DNA of 11,330 bases from Gryganskiella cystojenkinii (lineage: Eukaryota > Mortierellomycota > Mortierellomycetes > Mortierellales > Mortierellaceae). Of this stretch, positions 2,073 to 10,250 are shown piece by piece. Below the pieces are notes generated by a model. It ran no database searches and was not told the DNA's origin. It saw nothing but the letters and a program-made list of their open reading frames with translations. The stretch is from contig JAAAIG010000364.1 of assembly GCA_015852425.1 (NCBI GenBank), positions 1-11,330 of the forward strand, read 5' to 3'. Position 1 is the first letter of the stretch; every line of letters starts with the position of its first letter. A program made the translations under genes and the position numbers.

Positions 2073-4510
2073 CTAACCAAGAGTCTTCTTCATGTCCCGG
2101 AGAGCACCCAAGATCGTCTCTCGGAACTCGCGCGAATTCGTCTCCTTGCAAGAGTTCAAGCTCGAGATACTGAACTTGATGTTTTCTTTGCCGATCGCAT
2201 AGTTGATGCCGTATCCCTCTGGAACAACCGGTCCAAACCCTCCCCAGAAGTTATCACCCGGCGACATGTTGGAAGACGAAAGTCGGAAATACATGGATTG
2301 GATATAGGAAGGATCCTGGAAGATCAAGGCCTGTTTTTGCTCCTCAGGCGTCTGCATCATTGAACGCAATCCCAGCAAGTGACGATCGACACCCTTTCCG
2401 GCAGAGGCCGCCATCATGTACTCCAAATGGGACTGAATCGCCTTGGCCAGCAAGCGCTGCTTCTCGATGTTCTAAAAAGGGGACAACAAATGAAAAAGAA
2501 GAGGAAAGAGAGAGAGTTAGTGCAGGTTAATATGCGAGAAATCAGAATAAGGGGACAATTCCAGTTGTGTAAACGTACATCGGCGTTTTTGCTCTCGAAT
2601 CCCTTGACGAACGCGACACTGTCGACGGAGCAGGATCGGACAGTCTCGGTACGACCACCAAGGAAGAGTCTGGTCGAGGCAGATTCGTAAGTGGGGGTCC
2701 ATGTGCCGTAGTGGCGGTAGTAGGCGAGCTGGAGGACCATCTGAATGTACGCATCGGGCGAGCACTTGACTGTTTAGAACGGAGGGTCATTACAGAGGAT
2801 ATTAATTAGCATGATAGCGCATTAACATAGTAACAACATTGAAGCATAACAGTATATAAGCTCTCCGTTGAAGATCAGGATCCACCAGCATAGTACAAAT
2901 GTCGACTTACCACTCTTGAGCCAGTTGGAGCCATACTCGTTAAAGTGGATCAAGCAACTGTCGACGTTATCAATCATCTTCTTGGCATTGATCTCGGCCT
3001 GCTTAATTGTCTCCTTGATCTCATCATTGATCACAAACTTCAAGGGCTCGATAGGCGCCAACTGAGCGTGAGTAGGTTCCCTTGGCTCAGCAGTCTTCTC
3101 GCTATTGTCAAAAAACAGAGGAGGTTTGGTGATTAGTAACCAGATCGATTGGCATAGGCACTTGGAAAAAAGAGAGCCCTCTTATCCTTTATACTTACTT
3201 TCTCACCAGCTCGTCGAGGATACGTCCGGGGATGACAGCGTCTGCGGGGGTATGTTCACCATTGATACCAGCCCTACCGTTGCTCTCAAAGATGAACTGC
3301 ATCGACTTGTCGAACCAACGGTTATGGGCGTTGTTGGCGTGGAAGATGTTGTGGTGAGAAATATCGATATTCCGGTCAGAGCTATAATCGTCCAAACAGA
3401 CCGTGAACAACGAGTTGTCGATCGACGACAAAGTCGCATGGTTCAAAGGTGACAGACCCAAGAGCGTCTGACGCGCCTTGGCCCAAGTGTCTCTGTTCTC
3501 GGAGGTCAAGACACCGACCGCAGCCTGTCGATCTTGTGCACGGGTGTTGTTGACAGCCTCGACCACGTTCTTCAATTGCTGCTCGATCGCCTGAACAGAG
3601 ACACGTTCGCCGTTGGGTCCGATCACGGGGACTCTAAAGATTTGATCCCTCATCATGACCGTGATATAGTTGGCAGTCGTGGGCCAGGTAGTGACGATCC
3701 GATCCCGAGGCATCTCTGCGACTCTGTAGGCGCCAAATTGGTTCTTGTACTGGTTCATGCACAAGGGCGTTGTCTTTTGGTATTCTGCGGGCAGGGACTG
3801 AGTGTTGACCAGATCGTTAAAGTTGAGCAAGGAGCTGGTATAGTTAGCCGCACGCTTGATCTGAACCCCCGAGATAATGCCTCGGGCGGGACTCTGTTCC
3901 AGGTTAAAGTTGGGTGAATCTTTGAACTGGGCCCACCAATTGACATTGATCATAGAGGGTTCGCGCCATTCAAGATAACCCTTGTTGAGCCAGATGGTCT
4001 CCAACCATGAGTTCTTCTCAGTCCTGTCCATCTCCTGAAGACGTCCCTGGAGGGTCTCACCCAGTCCACCGGGCTTGACGAATTCATCGACTGCCTTCTC
4101 AGCACGGGCGAGCTCGGTCCCGTTGAGGATTGGGAGCAAACTACGCTTGTAACGGGCAGCGGTCTCGGACAAGGAAGGGATGGGGAGACGGGGCAACCTG
4201 GATTGGTTCTGGAAGGAACGCTCGACGACCTCGGGCGCTGTCTGTTGTGCTTGAGCGGAGGAGTAGTATGCGGTGCGGGGACGGGCTTGAGCAAGCAACT
4301 GAGGACGCGAAGCTTTGGTCAGCAAGCTGTGTGCAAAACACAAAAAAGTGGAAAAATGAAAGGAGTTTGGTAAGCACAATTATACATGTAAAGTTGTGCG
4401 AGCATGTCCAGCACGTGTGTGTAGGTGTTAACGTGTGAGAGATGCAATGCATGCCATGAGACTTACCTGGCCAACTGGCGAGTGGAGCGGAGAGGAGTGG
4501 AGATGTTCAT
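2073..4510 (-). CDS. CAT2: Carnitine O-acetyltransferase, mitochondrial type
   Basis: Catalyses acetyl-CoA + carnitine to acetylcarnitine + CoA, moving acetyl units between organelles. Five exons on the minus strand: 4467..4510, 3199..4326, 2911..3101, 2579..2769, 2073..2471 (650 residues, stop TAG). All four introns (97-141 nt) have GT..AG ends and the phases agree across every join. Residues 1-45 are rich in Arg, Ser and Ala with no acidic residue, a typical mitochondrial presequence. The choline/carnitine acyltransferase body follows. The catalytic His is H373 in the motif [11 protein letters not shown]. The carnitine-site block [16 protein letters not shown] is intact. The usual STS triad is SSS at 583-585. 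The [10 protein letters not shown] block and the SC.ETNS signature lie near the C-terminus. Length fits the family (about 620-670). The protein ends in TLG, so no PTS1 peroxisomal signal is visible, unlike yeast Cat2. It is divergently transcribed from the secreted-protein gene at 4875. Confidence 0.95.
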
Positions 4511-4874
4511 GAGAAAATGGATTGTTTGAAGGAGAGGGATGGAAAGACGAAGAGACGAAAAAAGAAGTGGAGAACGATGGAGGGAAAAGGGGTGAGAGCT
4601 GAGAGGACAACTTTGTCAACCCACGTGAAATCTGGAAATGATCAATTTTGCCCGAGGGCATGAAAAGCAGTAACGGTCGCGGCTGCGATTGAACGACACG
4701 GCCGCGAACCCTGTAAAATAGAAGTGTACGATAGCCTCTGTAAAAGAAAACAGTGTCTTGGTCACGTGCAATACGAGTGACCTTTCTTCGCCCGTTTTTT
4801 TCCTCCGCTCATTCACATTCATTCACATTCCTTCCTTCCTTCTTTCATTCACTAGACCTTTACATATTGACATT
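4511..4874. promoter_or_regulatory. Shared divergent promoter between CAT2 and the secreted-protein gene
   Basis: This 364-nt gap separates two divergent start codons (4510 minus, 4875 plus). Palindromic CACGTG E-boxes occur at 4622-4627 and 4763-4768, 141 nt apart, and another is in CAT2 intron 1 (4412-4417). The + strand side (about 4790-4855) is pyrimidine-rich with imperfect ATTCAC and CCTT repeats just before the second start codon. The CAT2 side is purine-rich on the + strand, hence pyrimidine-rich in the sense of CAT2 transcription. Which gene the E-boxes act on cannot be told from sequence. Confidence 0.5.
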
Positions 4875-5838
4875 ATGCGCCCCACAGTACTTTCTGTCGC
4901 AGTGGGTCTCACCCTCTGCACCCTGCTCACTGCAGCATCGCCTCTCCCCCAGTATTGTAAGCTCTTTTCGAACGTCCTCTTTATGCTTGACAAATGACGC
5001 CACGTTTGTGTAATGTTCCGGCATTCTATTCTTGGCATGGCGCAAATTCGGAACAAGGGAGTTGCCCACAGCAGCAAACAAACCCACAATCGAGCCAGCG
5101 GCAAGAGGTCAATGTCTGATACAGTCTTTGGAAACCAAGTATCCAAGATGGCCACCCATGCATTGGCTTCGAACAAAAAGACGCTTTTAACAACGACTAC
5201 GCCCAAACTGTGGCTCTCAACTTTCTTTTTCATTTTTTTTGAGAGTCCTTCACACGCCAGAGAAATCCTGGGACGACATGATCCTGACCCCGTTCTCACT
5301 CTGGCTCTGCAGTGGACTCTCCCTTTTGACGATTTCTTACAATCTTCTTTTTCTTCTTGATGCTATAGCGCCGGTACAACACCTATGTGTCGAGGACTGT
5401 CTAACGATCCAGGAAGACTGTCTATTGAACTCGATATCCATGTCGGGCTGTGTGATCGCCTTTGACTCTTGTCACAACGTCTGTGTCCCTCCGGACACGG
5501 TCGCTACACCCGACAATCACCCCAAGACTGCACCTCCTGCACCTCAACAGCAACAGCAACAACAACAAAACCAACCGCCCAACACTTCCAACAATGAAAA
5601 GCATAAAGACGTGTCCCACGAGACTGAGGTCACCACGCCTCCAACAAAGAAACCTGACACAACTACGACGACGACCACCCCAGACACTGATGAAGAGGTC
5701 ACCGATGGCAACGAAGGTGATCCCGAAGAGTACGTGGAGGACGATGGCATCGAGGACGAAGACAGTGATGAGAACCCCAAGAACCAAGGAGGCGAAGAAG
5801 ACGAGGACGGCTCTGATGATGACAACTCTGGCTACTAA
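4875..5838 (+). CDS. Secreted protein with regularly spaced cysteines, polyQ run and acidic tail
   Basis: Proposed join is 4875..4956, 5369..5838 (183 residues, stop TAA). The donor is GTAAGC at 4957, the acceptor is GATGCTATAG ending at 5368, and the 412-nt intron is phase 1. It is the longest intron in the window, so a hidden exon inside it cannot be excluded. Exon 1 is a signal peptide: hydrophobic residues 5-20, with likely cleavage in TAAS-PLP. Exon 2 starts with six cysteines in the pattern C34-x3-C38-x6-C45-x9-C55-x6-C62-x3-C66. A Pro/Thr/Gln-rich linker with eight consecutive Gln (residues 87-94) follows, then a strongly acidic Asp/Glu-rich tail to the C-terminus. There is no GPI signal or second membrane segment. 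The signal-peptide exon, phase-1 intron and partly matching Cys spacing (C-x6-C, then C-x6-C) recall the two small Cys-rich genes at 291 and 1299, so a distant relationship is possible. No family is recognised with confidence and no function is assigned. Confidence 0.72.
5545..5568 (+). repeat. CAG/CAA repeat coding for eight Gln
   Basis: Eight consecutive Gln codons (mixed CAA and CAG) in the linker of the secreted protein. The codon mix suggests the tract is not a recent pure slippage expansion. Confidence 0.9.
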
Positions 5839-6145: not shown

Positions 6146-8233
6146 ATGTCGCCGCTCTCATTCGACCTCAAAGACGTCAAGGCGGGAGAGGCGCATGCGC
6201 GCACAGCCCGTCTCGGAACATTGGCCATCGCCTCCAATCAAAACAAACGACAGATCGAGACACCAGGCTGCTTCATGTACTCGAGCAAAGGGTCCGTCCC
6301 TCACCTCACGCCTGATAACATGAGACTCCAGGACTTTGGAGGCGTGAATATCACCCTGGAGCAGATCCTGTAAGGACGAACGTTGATATAAATATGATGT
6401 CACTTGTCGAAGACGGCATTTGGAAACATATACTTATCGGCGCGTTTCTTTTTTTTTTTTTCGTCGCGTTCATCTCCCTCTTCGCTAGTCAAATGGATCA
6501 GCCCCAGTCCTTCACAAAGTGGACCAACCCTTTTGCCGCTCCCGGAAGCAACAAACTGATGAACCTCGCCGACTATTTGCACCTTCAGGATCTGATCCTC
6601 CTTTGTGATTTCCATGATTCAGCCCTTCTCGAACCTTTCTCCAAACGCGCGTCCAATACGGATTACCACGTCGTTCTCTCAACCCCCAAGGGAATCCGTC
6701 AACTGACTCTAGAAGATTACTTGAAGGTTGTTCGACACTATCGCCCCGATATCATGGCAGCTCTGACGGATTCCATCTTGGAGACAACTCAGTCGGTGGA
6801 ACAACCAGAACCCCATAAGAAGATTCCATCCGAGAAACGTATCCGCAAAAGTGTCGATCGGTCACTGAAATGGTTGGATCAGGTCCTGGAGGAGAGGCAG
6901 GGTCGCGATGGCATGGCTGAAGATCGCAAGCGTGAGGATGAGAAGCGGCAGAAGCGGGAAAAGAAACAGAAATCCAGAGATGCCAAGGCTGCGGCTGCCA
7001 CTGGAACACCTGTGGATACGGACATGGCCTCGGTTAAGGACGATGAAGAGGATACAAATGCGTTTGTACCTCAGCCCTGGACGGACGTCGCGGTGTTTGC
7101 ACATGTTCAGGGTGCACATTTGAAGGGAGAACGGATCAGGAGCGCACAGGAAACCGCCAGACGGGAAGAGGTCGCAGGATTTATCATCGACACAAACGAC
7201 CTGTATGCCTCGCTCTCAAAGGACCATGAGAAGCGATCGAACGAGGTCTTGACCCATGTTCAGACGTCTCTCGAGCATTTGCCCGCCAGTAAACCCAAGA
7301 TGGTTTATGGCGTTCGCACACCTGGTAAGTTTATCGTTGGGAAAACCACTATATGTTTAATCGTTTGCTGATTACCAAGTCGCCGTTAACTTATGCTAGC
7401 CACTATTATGCTGTATTTTATTTTATTTATTACATTTTCAGAGGACGTCTTGAAAGCTGTAGCGATGGGCGTGGACTTGTTCGATACCTCCTACCCATTT
7501 CAACTCACCGAGGATGGAAAGGCTTCCCTGTACAACTTTGGAACCGATGCGGCCTCCGCACCGCCCTCAATATCCGTCACCCATGGAACCCAACAGACCA
7601 ACCGCTGGATTAACCTTTGGGATGACGAACATTCCGATCAATTCAAACCGATCCTCGAGGGATGTGAATGTTATGCCTGCAAGGATGGTCATCATACCCG
7701 AGCTTATATCAACCATCTCTTGAAGACCCACGAGATGTTGGCGACAGTTTTGCTTATGAGGTAAAAAAAACTGATGGCGACGATGATCACGATGACGAAG
7801 GTGGCAAGAAAATAGGCCATCTACGTAAAGAAAATCATGGACGAATCTCTTCTCACTTTTTTTATTGTTATCTTGTTCGTTTAGTCACAACATGTACCAG
7901 TACAGCCTGTTCTTTTCTAAGGTCCGGGCATCAATTCAGGATGGAACTTTTGCTGCCAAGGCGGCTTTGTTCCACGAGGTCTTTGGGACCGAGCTTGAGA
8001 GGCGAGAGGAGAAACACGAGGCACAGGTCGTGGTCGAGGCTGCGCTCCAGAAGAGGAACCAGAGATTGGAGACGGCTGAGGAAGGTGTTATGGACGCTAT
8101 CGGAGGTGGTGGTGCAGGTCATGTTTTGGGACAAGCTCAGCCACAACAAGAGGCAGGTAACAAGAAGCGATCTTCTCAAGAGATCGAAGAAGCCGTGGAA
8201 GTGTCTGCGGAAGAGAAGGCACCAAAGAAATAG
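6146..8233 (+). CDS. QTRT2: Queuine tRNA-ribosyltransferase accessory subunit 2
   Basis: The non-catalytic partner of QTRT1 in the eukaryotic tRNA-guanine transglycosylase, which exchanges guanine-34 for queuine in tRNAs with GUN anticodons. Join is 6146..6369, 6489..7324, 7442..7760, 7885..8233 (575 residues, stop TAG). The introns are 119, 117 and 124 nt with matching phases 2, 1 and 2. Family signatures in order: PGCFMYSSKGSVPHLTPDN near the N-terminus, KRIRKSVDRSLKWLD at about 191-205, ERIRSAQETARRE, GVDLFDTSYPFQLTEDG, and the zinc site C428-x-C430-x2-C433 followed by HHTRAYINHLL. The fourth zinc ligand is H461, just after the third intron (S460 is split by it), which supports that splice. 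The protein is longer than the human one (about 415 residues): a charged Lys/Glu/Ala-rich insert at about 212-272 and a C-terminal extension of about 75 residues with a lysine-rich patch. The start ATG 6146 is the first one giving the conserved N-terminus. Confidence 0.93.
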
Positions 8234-8490: not shown

Positions 8491-10250
8491 TTATGCGTGC
8501 TGCTCCTGCTCAAGACCAAGATCACCGACGGAAGCTGTGACCTCCTCAAGGACGGCCAGGATATTCATTGGCGGTTCAAAATCATCTGCACCAGCATCGG
8601 ATCCATAAATGATGCTCTCCTCCTGCAGCTGCACTTCCTGAGAAAATTCGCTATTTGGGTCCGCCAGTTGCCCTACTTCCTCCTCCGGGATCGAAGTATC
8701 AAAGGATTGGTTTCCATTCTGGTAGAACGAAGTAATGTTGATTTCCTTTGCGATCTTGGACTGAGTTGGTTGAATAGAACACAAAACAATGACAAAAATT
8801 GTTTTAGAATCTCATTGCCAGTGCTTTTCATATTCCTTATTGTTTTGGTTGATATTCTTGTTTTTACCTGTGCTCCTTCTCTAAAGCTCAATTTCTCGCT
8901 AAAGACCCGAAGGTTCCCACCTTGAGGGGTATGGTTGATAAACTCCAGACTGCCAACTTTGGACTTGACTTTGGAATAATCCACCTTCTTGGACGTAGGG
9001 ATCTTGAATCCCGAAGATGATCCTCCTGAAGACAAACGTCTCTGAGTCGTACTAGTGGTCGTGGAAGTACCATTCGAAGAAGTTGTCGAACGAGCTCCAC
9101 TAGGCGATCGGGAATGACCCTCGCCCGGCGAAAACGTGCCTCCGTTTGAGGAAGCCCTGCTATCGGGTCGTCCTCGAGTCCCGTTCGAAGCAGCCTTGTA
9201 AGCGATGTTATCCAAGGATCCGACCTTGGATTTAACATGATCAAACGATTGTTTTTGTGTGGGGATAATATGTTTTGAGAGCCTACGGGCACTTGCACTG
9301 CCACTGTTGGGACTCGAGGGCGAGAGTGGTGGACTGGTTGCGACCGACAAGTTGACGGAAGAACTCCGGCGAGAATGGAGAGGTGAGCGAGACGAGGTTG
9401 CTGTGGAAATCGAAATTGCTGCGGTGGTGGAAACTGTAGGGGTGGATGAGACTGTCCTGACTGTCGAGGAGGTCCGTGATGGTGGGGGAGATAGGGGCTG
9501 ACGAGCAGCGGTAGTCGAGCCCGTTCTCGAATGAGACTTTCCTGCCGTCGTCGTGGTTGTGATCACCATGGGTCGCCTACCACCGGAAGCGGCTGCCAAG
9601 GAAGGCGAACCAGGCAAAGCCGGGGTCGCACCGTCTTCGCCACCCTCCTTGGGTTGGACAACGAGTTTAGCATCAACTTTAGATTTGATGTGGGAAAAGT
9701 CTTGTTTGAAGGACTGGATTTTCTTTTCAGAAGCTTTTGGCTTGTAGCTGATGGCGTCCAGGGATCCGACCTTTGATTGAATGGTCGAGAACCGTTTGCT
9801 GGGTGCACCCGGGAGAGCAGGTCGACCGCCAGTAGGACTTGTCACGGAGACTCGACCAGTGGGCGAAGTGACGTTGGTTCGGGACGAGGACGACGTGCCT
9901 GAAGAAGTTGGGTGCGACTTTGTAGACCTTTCCAGGTTTACATGAGGAGCCGAAGGCACGGGCGATGGGGAAATGGGAGGAAGAGAACAAAGAGAGACAA
10001 GAAAGGTTGTGTCTTCCGGTGTAGTTGAGGTTGCAATTGAGCCAAATAGTGGAACGAGAAGGAGGCAATGTTCCCCGTGGGTGTTCGACTGGGTTGATTT
10101 TGGGGGTGAGTTTATCGTCACCACCGATTGCGAGAATGACAAAAAAGAAAGTAAAAAGAGCAGAGAGGAGAGGAGCGAGCGCAAAAAAAAAGGGTGCGGA
10201 TGAAGAATATGGAAAGAAGATGAAGCGTCAGGGTGTGGAGGACGCTTCAT
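8491..10250 (-). CDS. Tau/MAP2/MAP4-like microtubule-binding-repeat protein
   Basis: Predicted cytoplasmic microtubule-associated protein. Two minus-strand exons can be supported: 8868 up to at most 10250, and 8491..8760 (stop TAA). They join in phase 0 over a 107-nt intron (donor GTAAAA, acceptor CAACTCAG). Three clear copies of the tau-type repeat core SKVGSL[DE]xI occur at residues 159-167, 341-349 and 430-438, plus a degenerate copy at 185-201, numbered from ATG 10250. The last copy is nearly complete: HTPQGGNLRV, then EKLSFREGAQ, matches the VPGGGNKKI and KLTFRENA parts of animal tau repeats. Linkers of about 90-150 residues are Ser/Thr/Pro/Arg-rich and basic. The exon-2 tail of 89 residues is acidic. 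The start is uncertain. ATG 10250 is the only upstream in-frame Met, but it gives a leader with a signal-like hydrophobic stretch (about 20-40) that does not fit a cytoplasmic MAP. The true start may lie in an unseen upstream exon, with a plausible acceptor (CCCAACTTCTTCAG) just before 9898. Repeat assignment is strong; function is inferred. Confidence 0.78.
8868..8984 (-). repeat. Tau-type microtubule-binding repeat 4 (most complete)
   Basis: Residues 423-461. It contains KVKSKVGSLEFIN, then TPQGGNLRV and EKLSFREGAQ, and so covers the SKxGS core, the PGGG-like turn (PQGG here) and the KLTF-RENA-like end of the animal repeat. The exon ends exactly at its last codon. Confidence 0.8.
9180..9251 (-). 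repeat. Tau-type microtubule-binding repeat 3
   Basis: Residues 334-357. The core HVKSKVGSLDNIAYK differs from the animal consensus by only a few conservative changes. The PGGG turn is absent and the sequence then passes into a Ser/Gly/Arg-rich linker. Confidence 0.8.
9648..9698 (-). repeat. Degenerate tau-type repeat 2
   Basis: Residues 185-201. It keeps the FSHIKSKV half of the core, but GSLDNI is replaced by DAKLVV. It follows repeat 1 directly at a spacing of 31 residues between the SK pairs (159 to 190), the spacing of contiguous animal repeats. Confidence 0.6.
9702..9797 (-). repeat. Tau-type microtubule-binding repeat 1
   Basis: Residues 152-183. The core TIQSKVGSLDAISYKP is followed by a Lys-rich SEKKIQSFKQD stretch in the place of NKKIETHKLTF in animal tau. 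Its DNA closely matches repeat 3 across the KVGSL codons. Confidence 0.78.
10100..10210 (-). promoter_or_regulatory. Pyrimidine-rich block near the 5' end of the tau-like gene
   Basis: On the minus strand this stretch is dominated by T and C runs (T9, CTCTCCTCTC, T5 and T7), like the leaders directly before the other genes of the window. It may be the core promoter and 5' UTR, or the polypyrimidine part of a 5' intron. Either reading argues against it being translated as the N-terminus of the tau-like protein. Confidence 0.4.

Follow-up and report, generated by a model that had tools for sequence, protein, structure and literature searches.

The question raised by this locus is whether a fungal gene encodes microtubule-binding repeats of the tau/MAP2/MAP4 family and, if so, where those repeats came from. 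The window (the whole stretch of DNA analysed, 11,330 nucleotides of Gryganskiella cystojenkinii) carries on its minus strand a gene which, judged from its sequence and at a probability of about 0.83, is a fungal member of this repeat family, encoding a protein, predicted to be mostly disordered, that likely attaches to the outer surface of microtubules and, in hyphae, would stabilise them or link them together.

Gene model and neighbouring genes

A gene at 8491..10250 had been proposed in the preliminary description. Its two-exon structure on the minus strand was recovered as a single open frame (10250-8868) followed by exon 2 (8760-8491), but support from orthologues for coding begins at about 9974, at ISPSPVPSAPHV, and continues downwards from there. 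The NCBI protein of this locus, P0001 (hypothetical protein BGZ83_006557, Gryganskiella cystojenkinii), has an identical splice and enters at 9899, a different start from the one supported by orthologues. Three start-like patterns were searched for upstream and none was found, and the MTS start of the orthologues was likewise not found there. The open frame at 9975-10250 is probably non-coding. The gene is made up as follows.

8491..9974, minus strand: tau/MAP2/MAP4-family gene, coding part backed by orthologues; P0001 concurs from 9899 downwards
8868..9974, minus strand: exon encoding repeats R1 to R4 and the first half of R'
8761..8867, minus strand: intron, GT...AG, phase 0, 107 bases, the same in P0001
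8491..8760, minus strand: last exon, with the second half of R', an acidic linker, the Mortierellomycota-type C-terminal block and the stop

Several other frames were annotated in the window. Exons of a carnitine/choline acyltransferase lie at 2073-4379 on the minus strand (PF00755, E 7.9e-99 and 2.8e-36). On the plus strand, three frames at 6319-8233 match queuine tRNA-ribosyltransferase in order (PF01702), the third below the cut-off (E 0.0093); they apparently form one intron-split gene whose 3' end faces that of the tau-like gene. Also on the plus strand, the short frames at 527-760 and 1557-1787 are both cysteine-rich, are alike in spacing and end in CVK and one further residue; the former, the sole one of the pair scanned, gave a sub-threshold Opy2-like match (PF09463, E 0.076). 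In the frames at 4823-5838 (plus strand), an apparent signal peptide is followed by a cysteine-rich region, a run of glutamines and a strongly acidic tail; the second frame gave weak mucin-type matches and nothing stronger in the Pfam scan.

Repeats and the R' block

The repeat region contains the following elements, all on the minus strand.

9735..9800, minus strand: repeat R1, SKRFSTIQSKVGSLDAISYKPK; PF00418 at 9735-9791, 24.1 bits, just below the cut-off
9657..9704, minus strand: degenerate repeat R2 (SKVDAKL), exactly 31 residues after R1; PF00418 at 9672-9725, 16.2 bits, E 0.56, below the cut-off
9252..9290, minus strand: ARRLSKHIIPTQK, a signature of several fungal groups, directly before R3
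9195..9251, minus strand: repeat R3, QSFDHVKSKVGSLDNIAYK; PF00418 at 9192-9266, 35.5 bits
8916..8987, minus strand: repeat R4, KVDYSKVKSKVGSLEFINHTPQGG; PF00418 at 8913-8996, 53.3 bits
8868..8915, minus strand: R' pseudo-repeat, first half, NLRVFSEKLSFREGAQ
8719..8760, minus strand: R' pseudo-repeat, second half past the intron, SKIAKEINITSFYQ

The three SKVGSL[DE]xI copies and one degenerate copy noted at the outset were all found again (SKVGSLDAI in R1, SKVGSLDNI in R3, SKVGSLEFI in R4; SKVDAKL in R2). Their SKV[GD] cores lie at residues 159, 190, 341 and 430 of the open frame, giving spacings of 31, 151 and 89, of which two of three differ from tau. The KVGS serine is kept in R1, R3 and R4, while R2 has lost the GS core. 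R4 runs through HTPQGGN, the PGGG-like turn described earlier, into KLSFREGAQ, and after the phase-0 intron into SKIAKEINI, so that a tau-type R' block, KLSFREGAQSK, is formed across the splice.

A search of the whole protein with PF00418, set beforehand as a test of family membership, gave 101.9 bits against a cut-off of 27 (E 1.6e-29) over four stretches, which were counted at E up to 1 and include the degenerate R2. Taken singly in a profile search of the genome, two of the four repeats (R4 and R3) exceeded the 27-bit Pfam cut-off; no further PF00418 gene was found in that search, in which this locus alone matched, and two bacterial control genomes also gave PF00418 matches at E up to 10, none of them above the cut-off. 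An animal-only profile, built from 528 different 31-residue stretches taken from 241 animal proteins, recovered R1, R3 and R4 and missed R2; it scored the window protein at 82.1 bits, and none of 5000 shuffles made from fungal proteins exceeded 11.2. The piece comprising R4 and R' matched PDB tau chains with E down to 3.6e-25, summed over the four repeats of tau; the match is best over tau R3 and R4, and the alignment spans 44 residues, continuing from R4 into R'. The PF00418 match, together with orthologues in related fungi, bears out the earlier proposal of a fungal member of the tau/MAP2/MAP4 family.

Conservation, disorder and the C-terminal block

Related fungi were searched for orthologues whose C-terminus is of the exon 2 type, and 29 such proteins from Mortierellomycota were found and aligned (series P0001-P0035 minus P0001, P0003, P0020, P0031, P0033 and P0034; P0039 was also excluded). 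In these, R1-R4, R' and the tail block each show a mean identity to the window of 70-83% (77% on average; R2 81%, R' 83%), against 35% for the 318 remaining linker residues. This contrast was equalled by 2 of 10000 random block placements, which points to selection on the blocks. An AlphaFold2 model (from 22 sequences) had a mean pLDDT of 46, no residue at 90 or more and one short C-terminal helix, and the protein is accordingly predicted to be mostly disordered. The helix belongs to one further feature:

8527..8580, minus strand: C-terminal block, FEPPMNILAVLEEVTASV; contains the one helix predicted with at least four residues; conserved among Mortierellomycota

A homology of this tail to that of vertebrate tau was considered and rejected, NILAVLEEVTASVGDLGL and LATLADEVSASLAKQGL being alike by eye only. 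Profiles of 32 Mortierellomycota tails (P0003 and P0020 were excluded beforehand, and one of the other 33 had no usable tail) and of 68 distinct vertebrate-type tails gave real maxima of 2.4 and 2.0 bits, with 99% shuffle levels of 3.9 and 3.7, and hhalign returned a probability of 0.4% (E 0.13). By this test, which was not significant, a vertebrate-type C-terminal tail (DEVSASLAKQGL-type block) was not found in the window protein, and such a tail is also absent from the named invertebrate members whose ends were inspected. On these comparisons the C-terminal block is a feature seen in Mortierellomycota, not one shown to be akin to the vertebrate tau tail.

Spread across fungi

PF00418-type members occur in at least 25 fungal genera among the matches listed (the best 120 per search; in two of the searches, the best 120 of 2982 and the best 120 of 2060 passing proteins). 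In what we take to be their phyla, the genera among these matches comprise nine of Mortierellomycota (Gryganskiella, Entomortierella, Linnemannia, Mortierella, Haplosporangium, Dissophora, Lobosporangium, Podila and Actinomortierella), three of Glomeromycota (Gigaspora, Cetraspora and Racocetra), seven of Mucoromycotina and nearby groups (Bifiguratus, Syncephalastrum, Umbelopsis, Halteromyces, Helicostylum, Pilobolus and Calcarisporiella) and six chytrids (Phlyctochytrium, Powellomyces, Geranomyces, Spizellomyces, Thoreauomyces and Rhizophlyctis). Among the best 120 matches per search, no name pointed to Dikarya, to a choanoflagellate or to any other unicellular animal relative. One tau-family protein, P0062 of Umbelopsis nana, carries the label 'cell surface agglutination protein Map4', probably through an error of naming.

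For counting, a fungal set of 57 proteins was used (36 Mortierellomycota, 3 Glomeromycota, 9 Mucoromycotina-type and 9 chytrid), in which P0003, P0020 and P0224 were placed by similarity, two within the 36 Mortierellomycota and one within the 9 chytrid proteins. The animal set, 241 proteins, is dominated by vertebrates and contains numerous isoforms; 18 proteins without a named source, P0003, P0020 and P0224 among them, were left out of it. The pattern H-I-[IL]-P-[TDEN]-x-K (HIIPTQK signature) stands before a repeat in 29/36 Mortierellomycota, 3/3 Glomeromycota and 4/9 Mucoromycotina-type proteins, and in 0/9 chytrid and 0/241 animal proteins. Its distribution suggests that the gene has a common ancestry in the three groups of moulds.

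Repeat spacing and sequence variation

Intervals of 29-35 residues make up 1026/1084 of those in animals, 17/20 in Glomeromycota and 34/44 in chytrids, but 17/38 in Mucoromycotina types and 39/105 in Mortierellomycota, where 64/105 intervals are of 60 residues or more. The Glomeromycota arrays hold 7-8 repeats, mostly about 31 residues apart. Tandem packing in animals as well as in Glomeromycota and chytrids suggests that the scattering is derived in Mortierellomycota.

Within the repeat, positions 258-262 (tau numbering) were fixed by the search pattern and hence are no evidence, while N265 to G273 lie outside it. Here the residues most often seen in the repeats of Glomeromycota, Mucoromycotina types and chytrids are N265, a hydrophobic residue at 266, H268, P270, G272 and G273, in agreement with animals (P0003, P0020, P0031, P0033, P0034, P0039 and P0224 were excluded from this position-by-position comparison). 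The Mortierellomycota repeats are worn: PGGG is often broken, position 268 is Y in 47/80 and H in 31/80, and at the position of tau K267 mostly N, H, S or G is found. KCGS occurs in 0/57 fungal proteins (0/36 Mortierellomycota) versus 231/241 of the mainly vertebrate animal proteins. Hexapeptides of the VQIINK/VQIVYK type were found in 0/57 fungal proteins; the strict pattern is also missing in 200/241 animal proteins, so that its lack is no fungal peculiarity. A VQI[IVL] stretch is present in 9/9 chytrid members (P0042, P0217-P0220, P0224, P0229, P0232 and P0253), in 201/241 animal proteins and in 0/48 other fungal members.

Origin of the repeats

Trees were computed from the last repeat. In the first (45 rows), a clade of all fungi was rejected (p-AU 0.009, log-likelihood 25.0 lower than the free tree); one blank row was omitted from it, and two of its fungal rows, P0307 and P0232, had been cut at the wrong place. 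In a tree of 39 rows, used as they were aligned, with these two recut, P0234 added and P0041, P0057, P0064, P0075, P0088, P0196 and P0251 dropped, a recut chosen after the outcome of the first tree, the all-fungi clade was not rejected (p-AU 0.128, log-likelihood 12.4 lower), and the chytrid rows stood beside animal rows. A clade of Mortierellomycota, Glomeromycota and Mucoromycotina types was not rejected in either (p-AU 0.155 in the first, 0.617 in the recut). Both trees have 48-49 columns, insufficient as proof of descent from the animal-fungal (opisthokont) ancestor, which is the simplest reading.

Contamination of the assembly by animal DNA is scarcely credible. Orthologues at 40-66% identity are present in many named Mortierellomycota records, and the gene sits on a 35.7-kb contig beside genes divided among several frames (the carnitine acyltransferase and the queuine tRNA-ribosyltransferase type), as the preliminary description had also argued. 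Convergence or chance in a serine-rich, low-complexity protein could be suspected since the motif is short and 20% of the residues are serine, yet it is highly improbable: the animal-only profile score refutes it at the sequence level, the last repeat is followed by an R' block as in tau, and the Glomeromycota have long, regularly spaced arrays. The spread over fungal genera makes both contamination and convergence very unlikely. An old horizontal transfer from an animal to a fungal ancestor, followed by descent within fungi, appears rather unlikely as well. It would fit the position of the chytrid rows in the recut tree, the lower likelihood of the all-fungi clade in both trees and the lack of Dikarya-named matches among those listed. 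On the other hand, it would need one old transfer each for the chytrids and for the Mortierellomycota/Glomeromycota/Mucoromycotina types, or a single one before their split; the second group is united by a signature that the animal proteins lack, and its clade was not rejected. As the fungal proteins are without KCGS, a vertebrate donor is unlikely. Of the three origins first proposed (ancestry, transfer or convergence), convergence is thus effectively excluded, and the choice between descent and early transfer is not settled by the repeat trees.

Under descent, the animal-fungal ancestor probably already had the repeat family, which chytrids and zygomycete-grade fungi then retained. At odds modestly better than even, we consider that the tau/MAP2/MAP4 repeat is no animal invention: it would have existed in the animal-fungal ancestor, survived in chytrids, Glomeromycota, Mucoromycotina-type fungi and Mortierellomycota and been lost in yeasts and mushrooms, with the Mortierellomycota array opened into a long-tethered, multi-armed microtubule linker.

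Proposed function

By analogy with tau, the window protein most likely binds to the outer surface of microtubules. Five tubulin C-terminal matches were found in the Gryganskiella genome, and the equivalent of alpha-tubulin Glu434 is kept in 3/3 of those ending like alpha-tubulin (one locus was aligned to PDB alpha-tubulin, the other two were read by eye). The third alpha-tubulin-type locus, L007, is divergent, with KDYAEV replacing KDYEEV, and retains the Glu434 equivalent. Two loci in the genome encode a KA1 domain, which we take to be the tail domain typical of Kin1/MARK kinases. The KVGS serine in R1, R3 and R4, the Glu434 equivalent and the KA1 loci make binding of the tau kind the best inference.

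The SKVGS repeats would run along a protofilament at one repeat to each tubulin dimer, every one with its KVGS serine facing the end of alpha-tubulin helix 12 (Glu434), as in tau. R1 and R2 keep the 31-residue step of tau and so could occupy neighbouring dimers, while R3 and R4, on steps of 151 and 89 residues of predicted disorder, might extend to further protofilaments or microtubules. Fungal Kin1/MARK-type kinases may loosen the grip by phosphorylating the KVGS serines. According to the accessible part of a review on tau-tubulin structures, one repeat binds per tubulin dimer, Ser262 touches Glu434 of alpha-tubulin, and this contact is weakened by MARK phosphorylation (PMC13224075).

It is unlikely that the protein, while a true family member by descent, has lost microtubule binding and been reused, e.g. 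as a phosphorylated scaffold. The degenerate R2, the scattered repeats, the weakened PGGG turns and the acidic C-terminus (the product of the last exon has a net charge of -17, the segment from 9974 through R4 one of +33) are what such a history might leave; against it stand the repeats and R', which rank with the best conserved segments across the 29 orthologues, and the 44-residue alignment of R4/R' with tau. Binding to the microtubule surface is the preferred reading.

Relation to published work

The preliminary description had held the family to be almost entirely animal. A 2013 survey, as far as its text was available, lists TAU/ptl-1 among conserved metazoan innovations (PMC3789837), in line with that statement, but UniRef labels several fungal proteins 'Microtubule-associated protein', and the accessible text of Sundermann et al. 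2016 names Rhizopus delemar once, with a distinct architecture, while tracing MAP4 to the metazoan ancestor (PMC4815063). No Mortierellomycota, Glomeromycota or chytrid members were met in that text, nor further fungal members in the available portions of PMC6759874 and PMC7604284. Yeast Mhp1 is said, in the part of the article available, to hold a stretch homologous to the microtubule-binding part of tau (PMC5288216), and the phrase 'tau in fungi' in the available part of PMC8778325 concerns fungus-infected neurons. In the open-access literature, as far as its texts were accessible, no other fungal members were found beyond Rhizopus delemar (PMC4815063) and the Mhp1 claim (PMC5288216). The novelty is limited: what is new is this gene with its unusual layout, and no account of the wide distribution in fungi turned up in the open-access literature searched.

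The spread over chytrids and several mould groups contradicts the listing of TAU/ptl-1 as a metazoan innovation in the accessible text of the 2013 survey (PMC3789837). The tau-type repeat is likely older than animals and neurons, and a fungal family allows the origin of tau-type binding to be tested in walled cells, where there are no neurons. The fungal proteins offer naturally occurring repeat variants in which spacing and turns are changed. The VQIINK/VQIVYK hexapeptides are linked to tau filaments, and 57 fungal proteins without them could help to separate the needs of binding from those of aggregation.

Comparison with known systems

Yeast Mhp1, with its reported tau-like stretch, is likened to the window protein by description only (PMC5288216, available part). 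The Rhizopus delemar protein, in the accessible text, is likewise fungal, has tau-like repeats and is placed with the family, but is described as distinct in architecture and without a claim on origin (PMC4815063). Invertebrate members (nematode, insect, mollusc) share the PF00418 repeats, in some cases with irregular spacing, e.g. in Lottia, and those inspected have no vertebrate tail; unlike the window protein they are animal and have no HIIPTQK signature. The Glomeromycota and chytrid members belong to the same repeat family, and the three Glomeromycota proteins share the HIIPTQK signature and have a KLSYRD block after the last repeat, whereas the number of repeats (5-8), their mostly tandem arrangement at 29-35 residues and the C-termini inspected differ from the Mortierellomycota layout and tail. 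Compared with vertebrate MAPT, MAP2 and MAP4, the window protein has spacings of 31, 151 and 89 where mostly 31-32 is found there, is without KCGS and a VQIINK/VQIVYK-type hexapeptide, and carries its acidic part at the C-terminus, where the vertebrate tail was not found. It resembles them in the PF00418 repeats with their V-x-SK-[VI]-GS core, in predicted disorder, in a basic repeat part and in the passage from R4 into the R' block K-L-[ST]-F-R-E-x-A-x-[SA]-K.
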